In this document: piece by piece, positions 24,102 through 30,713 of the stretch
How positions within the stretch are numbered: the first letter of the stretch is position 1
Layout of the letters: each line of letters opens with the position of its first letter
Assembly (NCBI RefSeq): GCF_900088125.1
Contig: NZ_FLQT01000003.1
Coordinates: 805,071-869,070, forward strand
DNA: 64,000 nucleotides
From: Peptoniphilus pacaensis
GTDB taxonomy: Bacteria; Bacillota; Clostridia; Tissierellales; Peptoniphilaceae
Reading direction: 5' to 3'
Translations under genes and position numbers: made by a program
Notes under the pieces: model-generated
The model's database searches: none
Told to the model about the DNA's origin: nothing
The model's input: the letters and a program-made list of their open reading frames with translations, nothing else

Positions 24102-25025
24102 TTATTCCGCCAATGCGCCGCCGCAGCTGCTTCCGGCTCCTGCCGTGCAGCCGTAGCAGTATTCTTTCCACACCATGGGGCGGGACAGATCGTCGGCTTC
24201 GATTACCTCGTCGATGGTCTTATAGGTGGCGGCGGGGATTCTTTCCGCTTGATGGAAGTCGCAGTCGTAGATGCGGCCCTTGGGATCCACGGAAATTTGG
24301 AAGCGGCACATGAGGTTTTCCACGGTGTCGGGATTGAAATTATCTTCCAAGAGCTTCATGTACTCCTCTTCAATGCCTTCGTCCCGCAATTTGTCGCCGA
24401 AATAGCCCATGGGCATATTGGTAATGGTGAAGAGCTCGGAAAATTCCACGCCCTCTTCTTCCAAATACTTGCGGTAGTCGGCTTGAAGGCCGTCTTGAGG
24501 TCCCGGCAAATAAGCGCCCAGGGGATTATTGACCAGGGACAGGTCTTTTTTGCTGCCGTAGCCCATGGCGTTGAGCTTTTGCAAATTGGGAATCACGTGC
24601 TTAAAGGTGCCTTCGCCCCGTTGGGAGTCCACATTGTCTTCCGTGTAGCAGGGAAGGGACACGACCACGTGGATGTTCTTTTCATCCAAGAGCTCCATAA
24701 GCTCGGGATTTTTGTCCATAGCCACGGCATTGGTCCGAAGGATGATGTCGTCGGTATACTCACTCACTTCGCGGATAAAGGGAATGAGAAGGGGATGGGT
24801 GGTCGGTTCGCCGCCGGTAATGTCCACCGTATGAAAGCGATGCTTCTTCAATGCCTCCACGCATTTGTCCATGGTCTCCTTAGACATTTCGTCGTGATCG
24901 GAGTTTTTCATTATGTGACAGTGGGCGCAGCGCAAATTACATTTCCCCGTAATGTTTAATTGCAGGACGCCCACGGGGCCGGTGGTGCGAAATTCCTCCG
25001 GTACGCGGTCGATAAATGCCATCAT
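24102..25025 (-). CDS. ArsS-like radical SAM protein with Cys-rich C-terminus
   Basis: 307 residues. CNLRCAHCH (CxxxCxxC) binds the radical SAM cluster and DITGGEPTTHP is the GGE SAM motif. The middle has NPLGAYLPGPQ and TITNMPMGYFGD, and the end CRFQISVDPKGRIYDCDFHQ...CYGCTAGAGSSCGG, together the mark of the ArsS/rSAM_SeCys family (DUF3641 C-terminus). Relatives act in arsenosugar formation, and some are selenoproteins; here all visible positions are ordinary cysteines. No ars gene is adjacent, so the substrate is open. Site AAGGAAG before two successive ATG codons. Confidence 0.88.
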   Translation of the reverse strand: MMAFIDRVPEEFRTTGPVGVLQLNITGKCNLRCAHCHIMKNSDHDEMSKETMDKCVEALKKHRFHTVDITGGEPTTHPLLIPFIREVSEYTDDIILRTNAVAMDKNPELMELLDEKNIHVVVSLPCYTEDNVDSQRGEGTFKHVIPNLQKLNAMGYGSKKDLSLVNNPLGAYLPGPQDGLQADYRKYLEEEGVEFSELFTITNMPMGYFGDKLRDEGIEEEYMKLLEDNFNPDTVENLMCRFQISVDPKGRIYDCDFHQAERIPAATYKTIDEVIEADDLSRPMVWKEYCYGCTAGAGSSCGGALAE

Positions 25026-25111: not shown

Positions 25112-26248
25112 CTATGGCCGTTCCTCTTTTTTCGAAAGGATGAAGTCGAAAATCGTCCCCATAGGCTCGTTGTCTCGAATGTCGATTTTTCCCTCCAGGC
25201 GACGGGCGACTTCTTTTACCAATGCTAGGCCCACGCCGTAGCCGTCGTGATTTCTCGACGGATCGGCCCGGTAAAAGAGGTCGAAGGCCTTTGTCTTGTC
25301 CTCATCATTCATTCCCATGCCCGTGTCGGCGACGGAGATGGTGACCTTCTCCTTGTCTTCCCTAAAGGAAATCGTGACTTTTCCCCCGGGCACGTTATAT
25401 TTTATGGCGTTGTCCAGAAGATTGTACATGGCCCGCTCCAAAAGGGCGTCGTCGGTTTGAAGGATCACATCCTCCCCTTCCACGGCGAGGGCCACGTTTT
25501 TTTCCGCGGCCTTTTCTTCCAGATCCAGCACCAGCTCCCACGCCACGTCCTTCACGTTCACGGGACGAAGCATCGGGGCGGCGTCGCGGCCTAAAAATAA
25601 AATCTCTTCCACCAAATCGGAGAGGCGGCGGATGTTTTTTTCCATGCTTTCCACAAAGGCGGCGAGCTCCGGATCCATACCGTTTCTTTTTTTCTTAAAC
25701 ACGTCCACCCTGGTGCGCAACACGGCGAGGGGCGTGCGCAGCTCGTGGGCCACGTTCACGGAAAAGAGCCGCTCTTTTTCGTAATTGTCGTAAATTTTAT
25801 CCAAGGTCTTTTGAAAGGCTTCCGACAGGGCGACGATTTCGTAGGCCCCCTCCTTTAAAACCAGGCTGTCTTTTTGCGCCATGGCGTCCATGTCCGTGGC
25901 CGCCACTTTTTTCGTAAGGGCCTCCAGGGGGCTGAGAGTGCGGCGAATGAGCAGGATAAAGATCCCGCCGCCTAAGAGCCCGGTGGCGAGAAAGACCCCC
26001 AGGGCGTAGAGCTTAAAATCCGCCAAATGGCGAATCTCGTCTTCGTCGATAAAGACCATGACCGATTCGTCTGTGGCGGATTTTCCCTTCATGCGACTTT
26101 CCACTTGGGCCGTGAGATTGGTGGCGATGTCCGCCTGCCGCCGAGTAATGAGAAAATTGGAGAGGATCAGCATGATCATAAAGACGGCGAGGCTCGCCGC
26201 CGTCAGTTTAAAGATAATGGAACGATCGGTTCTTTTATTCCCTGTCAA
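25112..26248 (-). CDS. Two-component sensor histidine kinase
   Basis: 378 residues: helix 1 (about 11-31), a short outside loop of some 45 residues, helix 2 (about 80-101), a HAMP-like linker, the dimerisation motif NVAHELRTPLAVL with the phosphorylated His, then the ATPase N box NLLDNAIKYNV, G1 DTGMGM and G2 GYGVGLALVKEV. The short sensor loop suggests it reads a membrane or small envelope signal. It overlaps the regulator gene by 14 bases and appears to start at TTG (26248) without a clear site; no better start exists before helix 1. Confidence 0.94.
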   Translation of the reverse strand: MTGNKRTDRSIIFKLTAASLAVFMIMLILSNFLITRRQADIATNLTAQVESRMKGKSATDESVMVFIDEDEIRHLADFKLYALGVFLATGLLGGGIFILLIRRTLSPLEALTKKVAATDMDAMAQKDSLVLKEGAYEIVALSEAFQKTLDKIYDNYEKERLFSVNVAHELRTPLAVLRTRVDVFKKKRNGMDPELAAFVESMEKNIRRLSDLVEEILFLGRDAAPMLRPVNVKDVAWELVLDLEEKAAEKNVALAVEGEDVILQTDDALLERAMYNLLDNAIKYNVPGGKVTISFREDKEKVTISVADTGMGMNDEDKTKAFDLFYRADPSRNHDGYGVGLALVKEVARRLEGKIDIRDNEPMGTIFDFILSKKEERP

Positions 26249-26906
26249 TCATATAACCCCTTCCGATTTCGTTTCGAATGATGTTTTCCCCGGCGGCTTC
26301 TTTGATCTTCCGCCGAAGAGCGGACATGTGCACCCGCACGGCGTTGGACACGTCGCTGACATTCATGTCCCACACGTGTTCCATGAGCTCTTCCGCGGGA
26401 ACGTAGCGGCCCTGATTTAAAATCAGGTACTCGAAAATGCCCCGCTCCTTCGCCGTAAGCTTAATCACCTCGCCGCCGGCGGTAAGGCTTTTCGTCGCCG
26501 TGTCGAAGGACAGATTCCTGTAGTGAATGATCTTGTCTTCCACCACCTGTTTTCTGCGGAGCAGGGAGCGAATCCGCGCTTCCAATTCGTCGAAGTGGAA
26601 GGGTTTGATTAAGTAGTCGTTGGCGCCCAAATCCAGCCCCTTGACCCGATCCGCCACTTGGGTGCGGGCGGTCAGCATAATCACATTAACCTTTTTGTCT
26701 TCTTCGCGAATTTCTTCCAGCAAGGTGAAGCCGTCGATTTTCGGAAGATTAATGTCCAGGACGATGAGATCGTAGGTCTCGCTCCAAAAGAGATCTTCCG
26801 CCTCCGCCCCGTCCGATGCCGTATCCACGGCGTATCCCGAGAGGCGCAGTCCTTCGGCGATACTTTCCAACAGTTCCTTTTCGTCTTCCACGATTAAAAG
26901 TCGCAT
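26235..26906 (-). CDS. OmpR/PhoB-family response regulator
   Basis: 223 residues. Receiver domain with the acidic pair (IVEDEKE), phospho-Asp in LIVLDINLPKIDG, and K in YLIKPFHFDEL; then a winged-helix DNA-binding domain (LTAKERGIFEYLILNQGRYV, VRVHMSALRRKI). Such regulators bind 11-bp-phased direct repeats. The nearby lipoprotein promoter at 29167-29202 has such a pair, so that cluster is a candidate target. Site AAAGGAGGGAA before the ATG at 26906; a TATAAT lies just upstream. Confidence 0.96.
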   Translation of the reverse strand: MRLLIVEDEKELLESIAEGLRLSGYAVDTASDGAEAEDLFWSETYDLIVLDINLPKIDGFTLLEEIREEDKKVNVIMLTARTQVADRVKGLDLGANDYLIKPFHFDELEARIRSLLRRKQVVEDKIIHYRNLSFDTATKSLTAGGEVIKLTAKERGIFEYLILNQGRYVPAEELMEHVWDMNVSDVSNAVRVHMSALRRKIKEAAGENIIRNEIGRGYMIDRE

Positions 26907-26926
26907 GCTTCCCTCCTTTTTTTCTC

Positions 26927-26932
26927 ATTATA
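26927..26932 (-). promoter_or_regulatory. Extended -10 of the two-component operon
   Basis: TGCTATAAT on the minus strand, 21 bp before the regulator start, right behind the terminator of the redox cluster. No good -35. Confidence 0.55.
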
Positions 26933-26933
26933 G

Positions 26934-26969
26934 CAAAAACGCAAACAGGCCGCGCCTCCTTGCGTTTTC
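26934..26969 (-). terminator. Intrinsic terminator after the NapH-like gene
   Basis: AAAACGCAA pairs with TTTGCGTTTT around a GC-rich loop, ending in TTTTTGC on the minus strand. Confidence 0.7.
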
Positions 26970-26976
26970 GAATCTT

Positions 26977-27870
26977 TTAGTTTTCAGGCAGTTCTTTCAT
27001 TTCTTTCTTTCCCATGGCACAGATGCCTTTCGAAATGGCGCCGGTAGGGCATGCCTTTTCGCATTGGCCGCAGCGAATGCACTCGGCGGCGTTTTCGTTT
27101 TCCACGGGATCCACATTCATCTTGCAGGCTCTTTTGCAGGCGCCGCAGTGAACGCAGGCTTCTTTGTCCAGTCGGTATTTAAAAACGGATATGGGATTGA
27201 AGAGGGAGTAGATGGCCCCCAAGGGGCAGATGTATTTGCAGAAGGGACGATAGATCATCAGGCTTAAAAGAATCGTGACGGCGAGAATGGCGCCTTTCCA
27301 CGCGTACAAAAAGCCGATGGCCCCTCGCATGCTTTCGTTTTTCCAAACCAGGGGGATGCCGCCTTCCAGCATGCCCACGGGACAGATGAGTTTGCAGAAA
27401 TAGGGGGATCCCTGACCCAAGACGTCCACGAGAAAAAGGGGAAGGATTAGGACGAAGATCAGCAGGATGGCGTATTTTACTTTTCTCAAATACTTGTCGG
27501 CTTTAAAGGTCTCAATCTTTTTCGGAAAGGGGATTTTATGAAGAAGGTCCTGCACCAAGCCGAAGGGGCAGAGCCATCCGCAGACGAAACGGCCCATCAG
27601 GGCGCCGATGAAGAAGAGAAAACCCACCACGTAAAAAGCGAATTTGTAATCCATATTTCCTATGACGGCCTGCAATGCCCCGATGGGGCAGGCCCCCTTG
27701 GCGCCGGGACAGGAGTAGCAATTCATTCCCGGCACGCAGAGGTTTTTCATCTTGCCCTGATAGATCTTCCCCGTCTTAAAGCCTTCCATATAGGAATTGG
27801 TGGCGAGAAACCACAGGCCTTGAAACAGATGGCGCTTCGTTTCTTTCATAGACTTCTTTTCACTAGCCAA
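26977..27870 (-). CDS. NapH-like membrane polyferredoxin (4Fe-4S)
   Basis: About 297 residues with four or more hydrophobic helices. Membrane-side cysteine motifs are CVPGMNCYSCPGAKGACPIGA, CGWLCPFG and CKLICPVG/CKYICPLG; the C-terminus holds two 4Fe-4S ferredoxin motifs, CVHCGACKRAC and CIRCGQCEKACPTGA. This is the NapH/MauN/RnfB-like architecture that moves electrons through or out of the membrane. TTG at 27870 overlaps the small CxxC gene by eight bases and has GGAG upstream; ATG at 27849 is an alternative. Last gene of the lipoprotein-CxxC-NapH transcript. Confidence 0.88.
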   Translation of the reverse strand: MASEKKSMKETKRHLFQGLWFLATNSYMEGFKTGKIYQGKMKNLCVPGMNCYSCPGAKGACPIGALQAVIGNMDYKFAFYVVGFLFFIGALMGRFVCGWLCPFGLVQDLLHKIPFPKKIETFKADKYLRKVKYAILLIFVLILPLFLVDVLGQGSPYFCKLICPVGMLEGGIPLVWKNESMRGAIGFLYAWKGAILAVTILLSLMIYRPFCKYICPLGAIYSLFNPISVFKYRLDKEACVHCGACKRACKMNVDPVENENAAECIRCGQCEKACPTGAISKGICAMGKKEMKELPEN

Positions 27871-28012
27871 TGCCGATACACTCCATGCAAATTCTCACGG
27901 CCTTTTCAAAGACCACTTGCATCTCTCCCCGGTGAATGCCGAAGGCCATCATGGCCACAGAGGCGAGGAGGATGGCGGGTCCTAAATAGGCACGATACGC
28001 TTTTTTTCTCAT
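27863..28012 (-). CDS. Small CD1871A-type CxxC membrane protein (49 residues)
   Basis: The sequence reads MRKKAYRAYLGPAILLASV and, after one transmembrane helix, ends RICMECIGIG. The basic start, single helix, HRGE turn and C-terminal C-x2-C-IGIG are what I recall of the CD1871A family of small CxxC proteins seen in Clostridia. The start lies one base after the stop of the lipoprotein gene (TAAGATG), and the end overlaps the polyferredoxin start. The C-terminal cysteine pair could be a redox relay or metal site between the thioredoxin-like lipoprotein and the polyferredoxin; that is inference. Confidence 0.82.
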   Translation of the reverse strand: MRKKAYRAYLGPAILLASVAMMAFGIHRGEMQVVFEKAVRICMECIGIG

Positions 28013-28013
28013 C

Positions 28014-29138
28014 TTACTTCACGTTCTTCAGTTCTTTTTCCACCACGGCCTTCCATTCTTCCAGGCTCTTGGCACCGGTGTAGGTTTCGCCGACGATATT
28101 GCCCTTGCTGTCCACGAAGAAGGTTTCCGGCAGGGCTTGAATGCCTTGCAGGCGGCCGTTCATTAATTTGTCGTCGGGTTTTAAGAAGGGGTAGGTGGTC
28201 TTTAATTTGCTTTGAATGGCTTTGGCCTTGTCCAGGGCGTCGGGAATGTCTTTTCCGTCTTCGTGGGTGTCCATGACCACGCCGACGATGCCGACGCCCT
28301 TGTCTTTCATTTCTTCATTTAACTTTTCCAGATCGGGAATTTCCTGAATGCACGCCGTGCACCAGGTAGCGAAGACATTGACCATGGTCAATTTGTTTTT
28401 CGCGAAATCCGCATCGGTAAAGGCCTTGCCGTCGATGTCTTGGGTTTCAAAGGGAGCGACGGACTTGGCGTCGGAGGTCTGCTCCATTTCTTTTTCCTGG
28501 AAGACGTAGCCGTTTTCAGCCATGGGGGTACGTTCCATGGTTTCCAGCTTGACTTCTTTTAATGCGTCTTGAATCGATTGATCCACATCCCCTGCCGTAG
28601 ACAGGTAGTAATTATACTTGCCATCTTGGCTTTCGCCGAGCTTGGTGTGGGTGTCGCATTTCGTCACTTTACTAATGGCAGCTTCGTCCATGGATTTTTC
28701 GTAAATCCCCAGAGTGCCCGCCCGCTTAATGGCTTCCAGCCACTTCGGGTATTCGTCGCCCATTTTGGGAATTTCCTTGTTCTTGTCTTCTTCCGTCAAG
28801 GCGGAGAAGGTGAGCATGGCGTACTTGATTTCGTTCTTGTCGCCTAAGGATTGATCATCAAGCATGATCACGTCTTTTTTGGTCATCATATCTTGTAAGG
28901 TTTTGGGTAGAGTGACTTTTGCACCCATATAGGGAAATTCATAAGTATCCTTTACCCACCACGCGTAATCGGCGGGCTTGATCATTTCGTTGCTCATGCC
29001 GGCTTTGGAAGCCTCCACGCTTTCCACTTCTTCCGGATGATCTTCACGACGGTTGTCTTTCTTCTCACAGGCCATCAGTCCGATACTCAGACTTGCAATT
29101 AAACCGGCGGCTATTATCTTTTTCATCTTCTTGTTCAT
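28014..29138 (-). CDS. TlpA-like thioredoxin lipoprotein, copy A
   Basis: 374 residues. Lipobox SLSIGLMAC gives lipidation at Cys24. Residues 30-225 form an N-terminal domain I cannot assign, with one cysteine (Cys161). The C-terminal domain is TlpA/AhpC-type: NVFATWCTACIQEIPDL with the CxxC pair Cys260/Cys263, and PETFFVDSKGN. It should act outside the membrane as a thiol-disulfide or electron-transfer protein. About 95 percent identical (19 differences) to copy B; the first 124 residues are the same. Directly followed by the CxxC and polyferredoxin genes, so this is the copy inside the operon. Confidence 0.93.
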   Translation of the reverse strand: MNKKMKKIIAAGLIASLSIGLMACEKKDNRREDHPEEVESVEASKAGMSNEMIKPADYAWWVKDTYEFPYMGAKVTLPKTLQDMMTKKDVIMLDDQSLGDKNEIKYAMLTFSALTEEDKNKEIPKMGDEYPKWLEAIKRAGTLGIYEKSMDEAAISKVTKCDTHTKLGESQDGKYNYYLSTAGDVDQSIQDALKEVKLETMERTPMAENGYVFQEKEMEQTSDAKSVAPFETQDIDGKAFTDADFAKNKLTMVNVFATWCTACIQEIPDLEKLNEEMKDKGVGIVGVVMDTHEDGKDIPDALDKAKAIQSKLKTTYPFLKPDDKLMNGRLQGIQALPETFFVDSKGNIVGETYTGAKSLEEWKAVVEKELKNVK

Positions 29139-29166
29139 GTAAACACTCCTTTTTTATGTTAAAGCC

Positions 29167-29202
29167 ATTGTACAGGACGGGCCGTTAAGACGGTGTTAAG
29201 AC
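29167..29202 (-). promoter_or_regulatory. Promoter of lipoprotein copy A with two GTCTTAAC repeats
   Basis: TACAAT (29172-29167) is the likely -10, without a normal -35. GTCTTAAC occurs at 29202-29195 and 29191-29184, exactly 11 bp apart, ending 11 bp upstream of the -10. This suits a class II activator of the OmpR family. Confidence 0.5.
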
Positions 29203-29203
29203 A

Positions 29204-29239
29204 GAAAAAAATTCTAAGGGAGAGCCCTTAGAATTTTTC
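29204..29239 (-). terminator. Intrinsic terminator between the lipoprotein copies
   Basis: AAAATTCTAAGGG-CTCT-CCCTTAGAATTTT followed by T residues on the minus strand; the duplicate of the one at 30478-30504. Confidence 0.88.
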
Positions 29240-29297
29240 CTCGCTTATTTTCTTCGCCCCATAAGGCGACCTTAAAGCCCTCAATGGCTTCTTCAAA
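29238..29297 (-). pseudogene. 3' remnant of the 67-codon gene
   Basis: Starts immediately after the stop of lipoprotein copy B and reads FEEAIEGFKVALWGEENKR, against FEKAIEGFKAALRGEENKR in the intact gene at 30510. It has no start codon or site and its stop is lost. It marks the left break point of the tandem duplication. Confidence 0.85.
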
Positions 29298-30422
29298 TTA
29301 CTTTACATTCTTCAGTTCTTTTTCCACCACGGCCTTCCATTCTTCCAAGCTCTTAGCGCCTAAGTAGAATTCGCCGACAACATTACCTTTGCTGTCGACA
29401 AAGAAGGTTTCCGGAAAGCCTTGAATGCCTTGCAAGCGGCCGTTCATTAATTTGTCGTCGGGTTTTAAGAAGGGGTAGGTGGTCTTTAATTTGCTTTGAA
29501 TGGCCTTAGCCTTATCCAGGGCATCGGGAATGTCCTTTCCGTCTTCGTGGGTATCCACGACCACGCCGACGACGCCGACGCCCTTGTCTTTCATTTCCTT
29601 ATTTAATTTTTCCAAATCGGGAATTTCTTGAATGCATGCCGTGCACCAAGTAGCAAAGACATTGACCATGGTCAGTTTGTTTTTGGCGAGATCGGCCTCA
29701 GTAAAGGCCTTGCCGTCGATGTCTTGGGTCTTAAAGGGGGCAATTGATTTTACATCGGACGTTTGCTTCATTTCTTTTTCTTGGAAGACATAGTCGTTTT
29801 CAGCCATGGGGGTGCGTTCCATGGTTTCCAGCTTGACTTCCTTTAATGCGTCTTGAATCGATTGATCCACATCCCCTGCCGTGGACAGGTAGTAATTGTA
29901 CTTGCCGTCTTGGCTTTCACCAATCTTGGTGTGGGTGTCGCATTTCGTCACTTTACTAATGGCGTCCTCGTCCATGGATTTTTCGTAAATACCCAAGGTA
30001 CCCGCCCGCTTAATGGCTTCCATCCACTTCGGGTATTCGTCGCCCATTTCGGGAATTTCCTTGTTCTTATCTTCTTCCGTCAAAGCGGAGAAGGTGAGCA
30101 TGGCGTATTTAATTTCGTTTTTGTCACCTAAGGATTGATCATCAAGCATGATCACGTCTTTTTTGGTCATCATATCTTGTAAGGTTTTGGGTAGAGTGAC
30201 TTTTGCACCCATATAGGGAAATTCATAAGTATCCTTTACCCACCACGCGTAATCGGCGGGCTTGATCATTTCGTTGCTCATGCCGGCTTTGGAAGCCTCC
30301 ACGCTTTCCACTTCTTCCGGATGATCTTCACGACGGTTGTCTTTCTTCTCACAGGCCATCAGTCCGATACTCAGACTTGCAATTAAACCGGCGGCTATTA
30401 TCTTTTTCATCTTCTTGTTCAT
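29298..30422 (-). CDS. TlpA-like thioredoxin lipoprotein, copy B
   Basis: 374 residues with the same plan as copy A: lipobox Cys24, unassigned N-terminal domain, and TlpA domain with WCTAC. Differences from copy A lie only after residue 124 and cluster in the thioredoxin domain, including GFPETFF for ALPETFF (next to the cis-Pro) and EFYLGAKS for ETYTGAKS, which could change partner choice. A terminator follows it, so it is probably transcribed alone from its own promoter, which has a single GTCTTAAC. Site GGAGGGTGAT before the ATG. Confidence 0.92.
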   Translation of the reverse strand: MNKKMKKIIAAGLIASLSIGLMACEKKDNRREDHPEEVESVEASKAGMSNEMIKPADYAWWVKDTYEFPYMGAKVTLPKTLQDMMTKKDVIMLDDQSLGDKNEIKYAMLTFSALTEEDKNKEIPEMGDEYPKWMEAIKRAGTLGIYEKSMDEDAISKVTKCDTHTKIGESQDGKYNYYLSTAGDVDQSIQDALKEVKLETMERTPMAENDYVFQEKEMKQTSDVKSIAPFKTQDIDGKAFTEADLAKNKLTMVNVFATWCTACIQEIPDLEKLNKEMKDKGVGVVGVVVDTHEDGKDIPDALDKAKAIQSKLKTTYPFLKPDDKLMNGRLQGIQGFPETFFVDSKGNVVGEFYLGAKSLEEWKAVVEKELKNVK

Positions 30423-30449
30423 ATCACCCTCCTTTTTGATGTTAAAGCC

Positions 30450-30474
30450 ATTGTACAGGAAGGGCCGTTAAGAC
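30450..30474 (-). promoter_or_regulatory. Promoter of lipoprotein copy B
   Basis: TACAAT (30455-30450) as -10; one GTCTTAAC at 30474-30467, in the same place relative to the -10 as the nearer repeat of copy A. The second repeat is missing. Confidence 0.5.
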
Positions 30475-30477
30475 ATA

Positions 30478-30504
30478 AAAAAATTTTAAGGGAGAGCCCT
30501 TAGA
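30478..30504 (-). terminator. Intrinsic terminator after the MarR operon
   Basis: TTCTAAGGG-CTCT-CCCTTAAAA then seven T residues on the minus strand. Confidence 0.85.
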
Positions 30505-30509
30505 ATTTC

Positions 30510-30713
30510 TCATCGCTTATTTTCTTCGCCCCGTAAGGCGGCCTTAAAGCCCTCAATGGCTTTTTCAAACTGCTTTTGTTTTTCTTCCATGGCGGCCACA
30601 TCGGCTTCACCTTTAAAATCCATGGCTTCCATCAGATCGTGGACATAGGCCTTTTCGGTGCGGAGCATATCTTTTTCCAGCCGCCGATAATGGCGCAACG
30701 ATTTCAGGTCCAT
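30510..30713 (-). CDS. Small helical protein (67 residues)
   Basis: A charged, almost fully helical product (LKSLRHYRRLEKDMLRTEKAYVHD at the start), probably a two-helix hairpin or coiled coil. No family recognised. The start codon follows the MarR stop by three bases, so it is co-translated with the regulator. Its 3' end was copied into the tandem duplication next to it. A partner or modulator of the MarR protein is possible but unsupported. Confidence 0.65.
   Translation of the reverse strand: MDLKSLRHYRRLEKDMLRTEKAYVHDLMEAMDFKGEADVAAMEEKQKQFEKAIEGFKAALRGEENKR

Follow-up and report, generated by a model that had tools for sequence, protein, structure and literature searches.

A conserved trio of lipoprotein, CD1871A-family peptide, and polyferredoxin as a candidate extracytoplasmic thiol-reducing relay in Peptoniphilus pacaensis

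Genes and proteins of the locus

We analyzed a stretch of 64,000 nucleotides from Peptoniphilus pacaensis (contig NZ_FLQT01000003.1, positions 805,071 to 869,070; hereafter the window), in which three adjoining minus-strand genes encode a TlpA/ResA-like lipoprotein, a small CxxC membrane peptide of the CD1871A family, and a membrane polyferredoxin. The lipoprotein gene of this trio (copy B, 28014..29138, 374 residues) ends one base (28013) ahead of the gene for the 49-residue peptide (27863..28012), which in turn overlaps the polyferredoxin gene (26977..27870, 297 residues, TTG start) by 8 nt. A second lipoprotein gene, copy A (29298..30422, minus strand, 374 residues), lies farther upstream. 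An initial annotation of this DNA had given the same positions and the same order, from the lipoprotein stop through the single base and the overlap to the polyferredoxin, and both stand.

Two terminator-like hairpins on the minus strand bracket copy B, the CxxC gene, and the polyferredoxin gene. One is a palindrome with a T-run between the two lipoprotein copies (29207..29238; a 65-nt stretch folds at -21.4 kcal/mol), and the other lies between the polyferredoxin and a response regulator gene (26934..26970; a 75-nt stretch folds at -21.6 kcal/mol), followed by a TATAAT within 26926-26934 ahead of that regulator. Both hairpins rest on manual folding; an automatic terminator scan listed neither, and its terminator-like count of 9 was under the shuffle mean of 12.6. 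The three bracketed genes are likely on one transcript. Copy A is likely transcribed separately from the trio, and the downstream two-component system is probably a separate transcript and no conserved part of the module. A single transcript for all, as initially described, is thus plausible for the three genes of the trio but not for copy A.

The peptide scores 75.3 bits against the NCBI model NF040920 (cut-off 32), aligning to positions 2-38 of 38, and is a full CD1871A family member by this curated cut-off. In a survey of 398 genomes of the phylum and 14 controls, NF040920 matched 60 of the former (45 over the cut-off) and none of the latter. This score and this distribution indicate that the 49-residue open reading frame (ORF) is real and not a chance frame. 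The expectation that so small a gene is easily missed by annotation did not hold, since the model already covers it and it is annotated in Peptoclostridium acidaminophilum. The model name carries no function, and the term CD1871A was absent from the open-licence PubMed Central (PMC) papers searched. The peptide has one hydrophobic segment (by eye), a positive N-terminus, and the C-terminal sequence CMECIGIG (C42 and C45), whose CxxC-I-G is nearly invariant among CD1871A relatives. The net charge of the N-terminal side is more positive than that of the C-terminal side at 115 of 141 loci (equal at 19), which suggests that the CxxC faces outward.

Both lipoproteins start with a lipobox-like LMAC (by eye) and carry CTAC in a C-terminal thioredoxin domain, at residues 260-263 in copy B; C260 and C263 are invariant across 34 aligned sequences. 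PF00578 is matched above its gathering score of 26 in copy B (62.4 bits) and copy A (61.5 bits), so that each holds an AhpC-TSA/redoxin domain with a CxxC. The AlphaFold2 model of the copy B thioredoxin domain superposes on ResA (1st9) with Z 17.5 and a root-mean-square deviation of 2.5 over 135 residues; ResA is the best type of structural match, followed by Etrx (Etrx1, 4hqs, Z 15.0) and CcmG types. NCBIfam cut-offs were not reached by copy B for ResA (NF002854, 56.7 of 170), TlpA (NF047696, 55.6 of 230), or DsbE (TIGR00385, 51 of 123.15), nor by copy A (52.4, 56.7, and 48.5 bits, respectively). No Pfam family passed its cut-off in the N-terminal domain of the lipoprotein, and the displayed Foldseek and VIA-align rows, from searches in which this domain was not submitted alone, cover the thioredoxin domain. 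The N-terminal domain was matched at 10 of 139 other loci and is for that reason best described as an add-on.

The polyferredoxin has 18 conserved Cys and matches Fer4_5 and Fer4. Its best NCBIfam match is NapH, far under the cut-offs (TIGR02163, 68.9 of 213 bits; NF007013, 57.1 of 234 bits). We aligned 140 polyferredoxins, from 138 loci, one plasmid locus, and the window. Each Cys of the two ferredoxin motifs is kept in 136/140, C97 and C101 in 139/140 each, C211 and C215 in 137/140 each, C159 in 131/140, and C163 in 139/140. Toward the N-terminus, C45 is kept in 118/140, C51 and C54 in 139/140 each, and C61 in 140/140; the pattern C-x5/6-C-x2-C-x6-CP occurs in 128 sequences, and the 12 others either show C-x4-C instead (7) or look truncated or mis-started by eye. 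A motif scan of these 140 sequences revealed no fusion of the CxxC peptide to the polyferredoxin.

The AlphaFold2 model of the polyferredoxin (predicted local distance difference test 86, predicted template modelling score 0.84) contains helices at residues 77-92, 125-151, and 179-205 and an N-terminal helix at 3-24. The loop of residues 94-133 carries on average 7.8 Lys and Arg and that of residues 153-178 carries 1.1, a difference which would place C97/C101 on the inner side and C159/C163 on the outer; after the next helix, C211/C215 would again lie inside, as would the ferredoxin domain. An outer position of residues 31-76 would require a membrane-spanning N-terminal helix. Matches in the PDB are commonly limited to residues 229-287, and Foldseek gave no match to the model at E 0.001, so that the structure searches of the modeled membrane part point neither to a new fold nor to a known one. 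The protein has no PF02683 match, and no ferredoxin:thioredoxin reductase domain is among its Pfam matches.

Conservation of the set and selenocysteine-type partners

Gene neighborhoods were compared at 139 loci besides the window, namely 59 loci in one set and the best 80 of at least 553 confirmed loci in a second. Species may overlap between the sets, and 7 of the 80 loci are titled as non-Bacillota metagenome-assembled genomes (Treponema, Spirochaetaceae, Synergistaceae, Chloroflexi, and Anaerolineaceae), for which binning errors are possible. A same-strand polyferredoxin gene follows the peptide gene within 3 kb at 138/139 loci (59/59 and 79/80, with L123 lacking one), and a thioredoxin-like gene is nearby at 108/139 (47/59 and 61/80). 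Among the best 80 of the at least 553 loci, one same-strand thioredoxin match falls outside the partner zone (L098). The identical 8-nt start/stop overlap recurs in 78/140 polyferredoxins, in a count for which the script chose the starts nearest that place.

A gene-neighborhood search of this kind had been proposed in the initial annotation, where failure of the trio to stay together in other genomes was to count against it; the trio is conserved elsewhere and is more widespread than could be told at that stage, occurring in many oxygen-avoiding bacteria. At a threshold of E 1e-30, a polyferredoxin model matches 65/398 genomes, among them every one of the 60 CD1871A-positive genomes, though it was built from CD1871A neighbors and leans to that clade. 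In three of the five further genomes (G036, G078, and G114), inspection by eye shows a divergent CxxC gene directly ahead of the polyferredoxin gene.

At 20 of the 139 loci (19/59 and 1/80), the thioredoxin partner has exactly one in-frame TGA, which stands where the first active-site Cys would be and has homologous sequence on either side. Nineteen of the 20 are in genomes under 9 family labels. SelB scored over its cut-off in 18/19 TGA-partner genomes versus 20/41 others of the 60, with one partner (L147) outside this test; the SelB match was missed in G168, a genome that is 90% complete. In these relatives the partner combines the features by which we recognize a putative selenoprotein, namely a TGA at the catalytic Cys, flanking homology, and SelB. 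The position of the TGA and the presence of SelB indicate that the partner thiol site is very probably catalytic, and in some species the active site of the surface thioredoxin partner appears to contain selenium. The selenocysteine-type TGA at the partner active site is a new observation. The window genome has SelB, yet its own partner uses Cys.

Sequence downstream of the TGA, where a bacterial SECIS hairpin would lie, shows a recurrent element in part of the partners. The motif GCTGCAGTTGCAGC starts 23 nt past the first base of the TGA in 13/20 partners, and its 5-bp hairpin is present in the minimum-energy fold of 10/20. Folding downstream of the TGA, with a mean z of -0.81, is somewhat more stable than at the corresponding position of 92 Cys homologues, where the mean is -0.01 (one-sided p 4e-4, with base composition unadjusted between the groups). 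At the protein level, LQLQP follows the selenocysteine site in 14/20 UxxC partners (L034, L035, L037, L039, L077, L080, L083-L086, and L088-L091), 13 of which have GCTGCAGTTGCAGC, while other UxxC and CxxC relatives tend to P-x-L. It looks as if the protein sequence had been bent to suit the RNA element at these partners.

A proposed thiol-reducing relay and its alternatives

We favor the reading, at a probability of about 0.6, that the trio forms a CcdA/DsbD-independent extracytoplasmic thiol-reducing relay from a cytoplasmic Fe–S donor to a thiol reductase outside the membrane, a task that falls to CcdA/DsbD in other organisms. A low-potential cytoplasmic donor, e.g., ferredoxin, would reduce the polyferredoxin at its two C-terminal [4Fe-4S] sites (C239-C249 and C264-C274), from which electrons would pass to an inner membrane site (C97/C101 with C211/C215) and then cross to an outer site (C45, C51, C54, and C61 with C159/C163). 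The outer site would reduce the CxxC that the CD1871A peptide carries at its outer end, and this CxxC would pass the electrons to the TlpA/ResA-like lipoprotein, at its CxxC or, in some species, its UxxC. The lipoprotein would then reduce disulfides or other oxidized thiols outside the membrane. Electron direction, cluster ligation, topology, a physical complex, and the substrate are elements of this scheme that we infer. The conservation of the trio, together with the UxxC sites, speaks for a linked set that is redox-active. The earlier proposal, in which an envelope redox module connects an outside thiol protein with a cytoplasmic donor, is therefore borne out in part, through the linkage, the thioredoxin-like partner, and the active-site TGA.

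The genome of P. pacaensis has no match to PF02683, PF01578 (cytochrome c assembly), or PF01323 (DsbA), and its lipoproteins would thus have no known CcdA/DsbD donor. Across the 398 genomes, PF02683 is present in 16/60 genomes with the module and 254/338 without it (pooled, p 1e-12), or in 19/63 versus 251/335 (p 2e-11) if the three divergent cases are counted as module genomes.

Several observations weigh against the proposed relay. Within the 14 families that include genomes both with and without the module, PF02683 occurs in 14/37 versus 24/46 (Cochran–Mantel–Haenszel p 0.51), so the pooled anticorrelation may reflect ancestry; we dropped it as proof of replacement and used only the absence of PF02683 from the genome itself. 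DsbF, peroxiredoxins, and glutathione peroxidases are also among the structural matches of the thioredoxin domain, and the fold alone therefore leaves the reaction unfixed. The outer placement of residues 31-76 of the polyferredoxin depends on an N-terminal helix that is weakly hydrophobic (residues 14-30, mean hydropathy 0.55), and this loop has about 4 Lys and Arg, contrary to the positive-inside rule. No thioredoxin gene was found near 31/139 loci, some of them on short contigs, so this partner is not obligate in cis. Finally, no CxxC gene was found beside the sole polyferredoxin copy of G380, upstream of the weak match in G255, or near the second polyferredoxin copies L177 and L178 (in G015 and G134).

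Other explanations were weighed against the same data. The CD1871A peptide could be a subunit that helps the polyferredoxin to assemble or stay stable, or that donates cluster ligands, and its cysteines would be kept reduced by a nearby thioredoxin. The CxxC gene is indeed tied closer to the polyferredoxin (138/139) than to the thioredoxin (108/139), but its near-invariant CxxC-I-G is as compatible with an exchange site as with a ligand, and UxxC partners under 9 family labels better fit a catalytic partner; we consider this explanation unlikely. The path could also run inward, with outside thiols oxidized and electrons delivered to a cytoplasmic acceptor, as an oxidative-folding system of anaerobes. 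Electron direction is not readable from sequence, some oxidant might be needed in a genome with no DsbA match, and DsbF-type proteins appear among the structural matches. However, the best of those matches (ResA, then Etrx and CcmG types) are reductases, and because the potential of Fe–S ferredoxins is normally lower than that of TlpA-type dithiols, the inward flow would be uphill, making this direction improbable.

The role of the trio could instead be set by the neighboring genes, an OmpR-type response regulator (26235..26906, minus strand), its paired sensor histidine kinase with HisKA and HATPase_c (25112..26248, minus strand), and an ArsS-type radical S-adenosylmethionine protein beside them (24102-25025). 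The locus would then be a metal or arsenic stress cluster in which the CxxC proteins bind metal. The kinase and the regulator score best against heavy-metal models, both under cut-off, and the ArsS-like protein exceeds the cut-off of TIGR04167 (351.5 bits, cut-off 300). Yet response regulators and kinases adjoin the module at few other loci, a terminator-like hairpin separates them from the trio, and the radical S-adenosylmethionine protein of the window was matched at 1/59 other loci, weakly (L039). Response regulators are the next commonest neighbor family after the trio (24 loci, either strand), and one lies on the same strand just downstream only at L065, L104, L105, and L167. We accordingly rejected the two-component system and the ArsS-like gene as module parts and regard a stress cluster as very improbable. 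Service of the lipoproteins in cytochrome c maturation, in the manner of ResA or CcsX, would fit ResA as the best structural match, but with no PF01578 match in the genome and a score of 56.7 against the ResA cut-off of 170 we give it scarcely any credence.

Relation to known systems and further observations

The closest described parallel to the proposed relay is the CcdA–Etrx–MsrAB2 pathway (PMC3914529). There, the surface lipoprotein Etrx1 of Streptococcus pneumoniae receives electrons from CcdA, which is fed by cytoplasmic thioredoxin. The two systems share a surface lipoprotein of the ResA/TlpA fold and the need for an integral membrane electron donor. They differ in that donor, which is CcdA in the pathway as described there and would be the polyferredoxin with the CxxC peptide in P. 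pacaensis, whose genome lacks a PF02683 match. The same genome has one MsrA match and one MsrB match; no signal peptide was seen by eye in their open frames, no predictor being used, and both enzymes look cytoplasmic. Methionine sulfoxide repair as the job of the trio in this genome is thus unsupported, and we set it aside.

The polyferredoxin shares with the NapH/MauN proteins (TIGR02163) transmembrane helices with CxxxCP motifs and a C-terminal two-cluster ferredoxin domain. It differs from them in the conserved C45, C51, C54, C61, C159, and C163, which are predicted to lie outside and are presumably absent from E. coli NapH, and in having a thioredoxin as its linked partner. Ferredoxin:thioredoxin reductase, a soluble enzyme, would solve the same chemistry, passing electrons from a one-electron Fe–S donor to a thioredoxin disulfide. 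We tentatively suggest, with less confidence than we place in the relay itself, that the trio is the membrane counterpart of this reductase. It would be a widespread and so far undescribed class of transmembrane Fe–S wire, converting one-electron supply from ferredoxin so as to drive two-electron reactions of dithiols or selenenylsulfides outside the cell, with the 40-50 residue CxxC peptide as exchange subunit, and it would replace CcdA/DsbD in many anaerobes. In kind, the trio would belong to the already known extracytoplasmic thiol reduction; a new electron-transfer principle would await biochemistry.

To our knowledge, no mechanism has been established by which anaerobes lacking CcdA/DsbD maintain reduced thiols outside the membrane. 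If correct, a ferredoxin-driven relay would link the thiol chemistry of the cell surface straight to the pool of low-potential electrons and would provide the first function for the CD1871A family, of which at least 553 relatives were confirmed. The UxxC partners make the idea testable. UxxC thioredoxin-fold proteins appear as families in reviews of selenocysteine-containing TlpA/Prx-like selenoproteins (PMC13188914 and PMC9312934), whose available portions do not pair them with a polyferredoxin or CD1871A; in the main text of PMC13188914 the word polyferredoxin occurs 0 times. PMC10783030 concerns Campylobacter FetE. No paper on the CD1871A–polyferredoxin–thioredoxin set was found in the open-licence PMC literature, and an earlier description outside it is possible.

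The two lipoprotein genes form a tandem duplicate with a spacing of 1,284 bp and 1044/1125 identical bases (81 differences). The duplication (28009-30576) spans the lipoprotein gene and its upstream region, and the repeat upstream of copy B holds a remnant of the 3' end of a 67-residue ORF (30510-30713). The copies share their first 124 residues without a difference, and their base sequences diverge only after codon 75, as if the 5' part of the gene had been homogenized between the copies. All 19 residue differences fall past residue 124. Two of them, at residues 335-336 (AL in 28014-29138, GF in 29298-30422), sit immediately ahead of P337, a residue shared by all 34 aligned sequences. The loop preceding the cis-proline shapes partner choice in thioredoxin folds, and from the position of these differences the copies may have diverged in partner.

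Partner variants occur at two other loci, with two thioredoxin domains in one ORF at L115:6535-7962 and a rhodanese-like stretch (by eye) ahead of the thioredoxin domain at L154:9563-10603. One plasmid record carries the locus, and seven unannotated "phage" records have polyferredoxin matches. Two of the sequences titled Bacteriophage sp., MT836032 and MT836098 from human fecal samples, encode polyferredoxins with 53% identity (87% of the query covered) and 51% identity (90% covered), respectively; these records are possibly host DNA or mobile elements.

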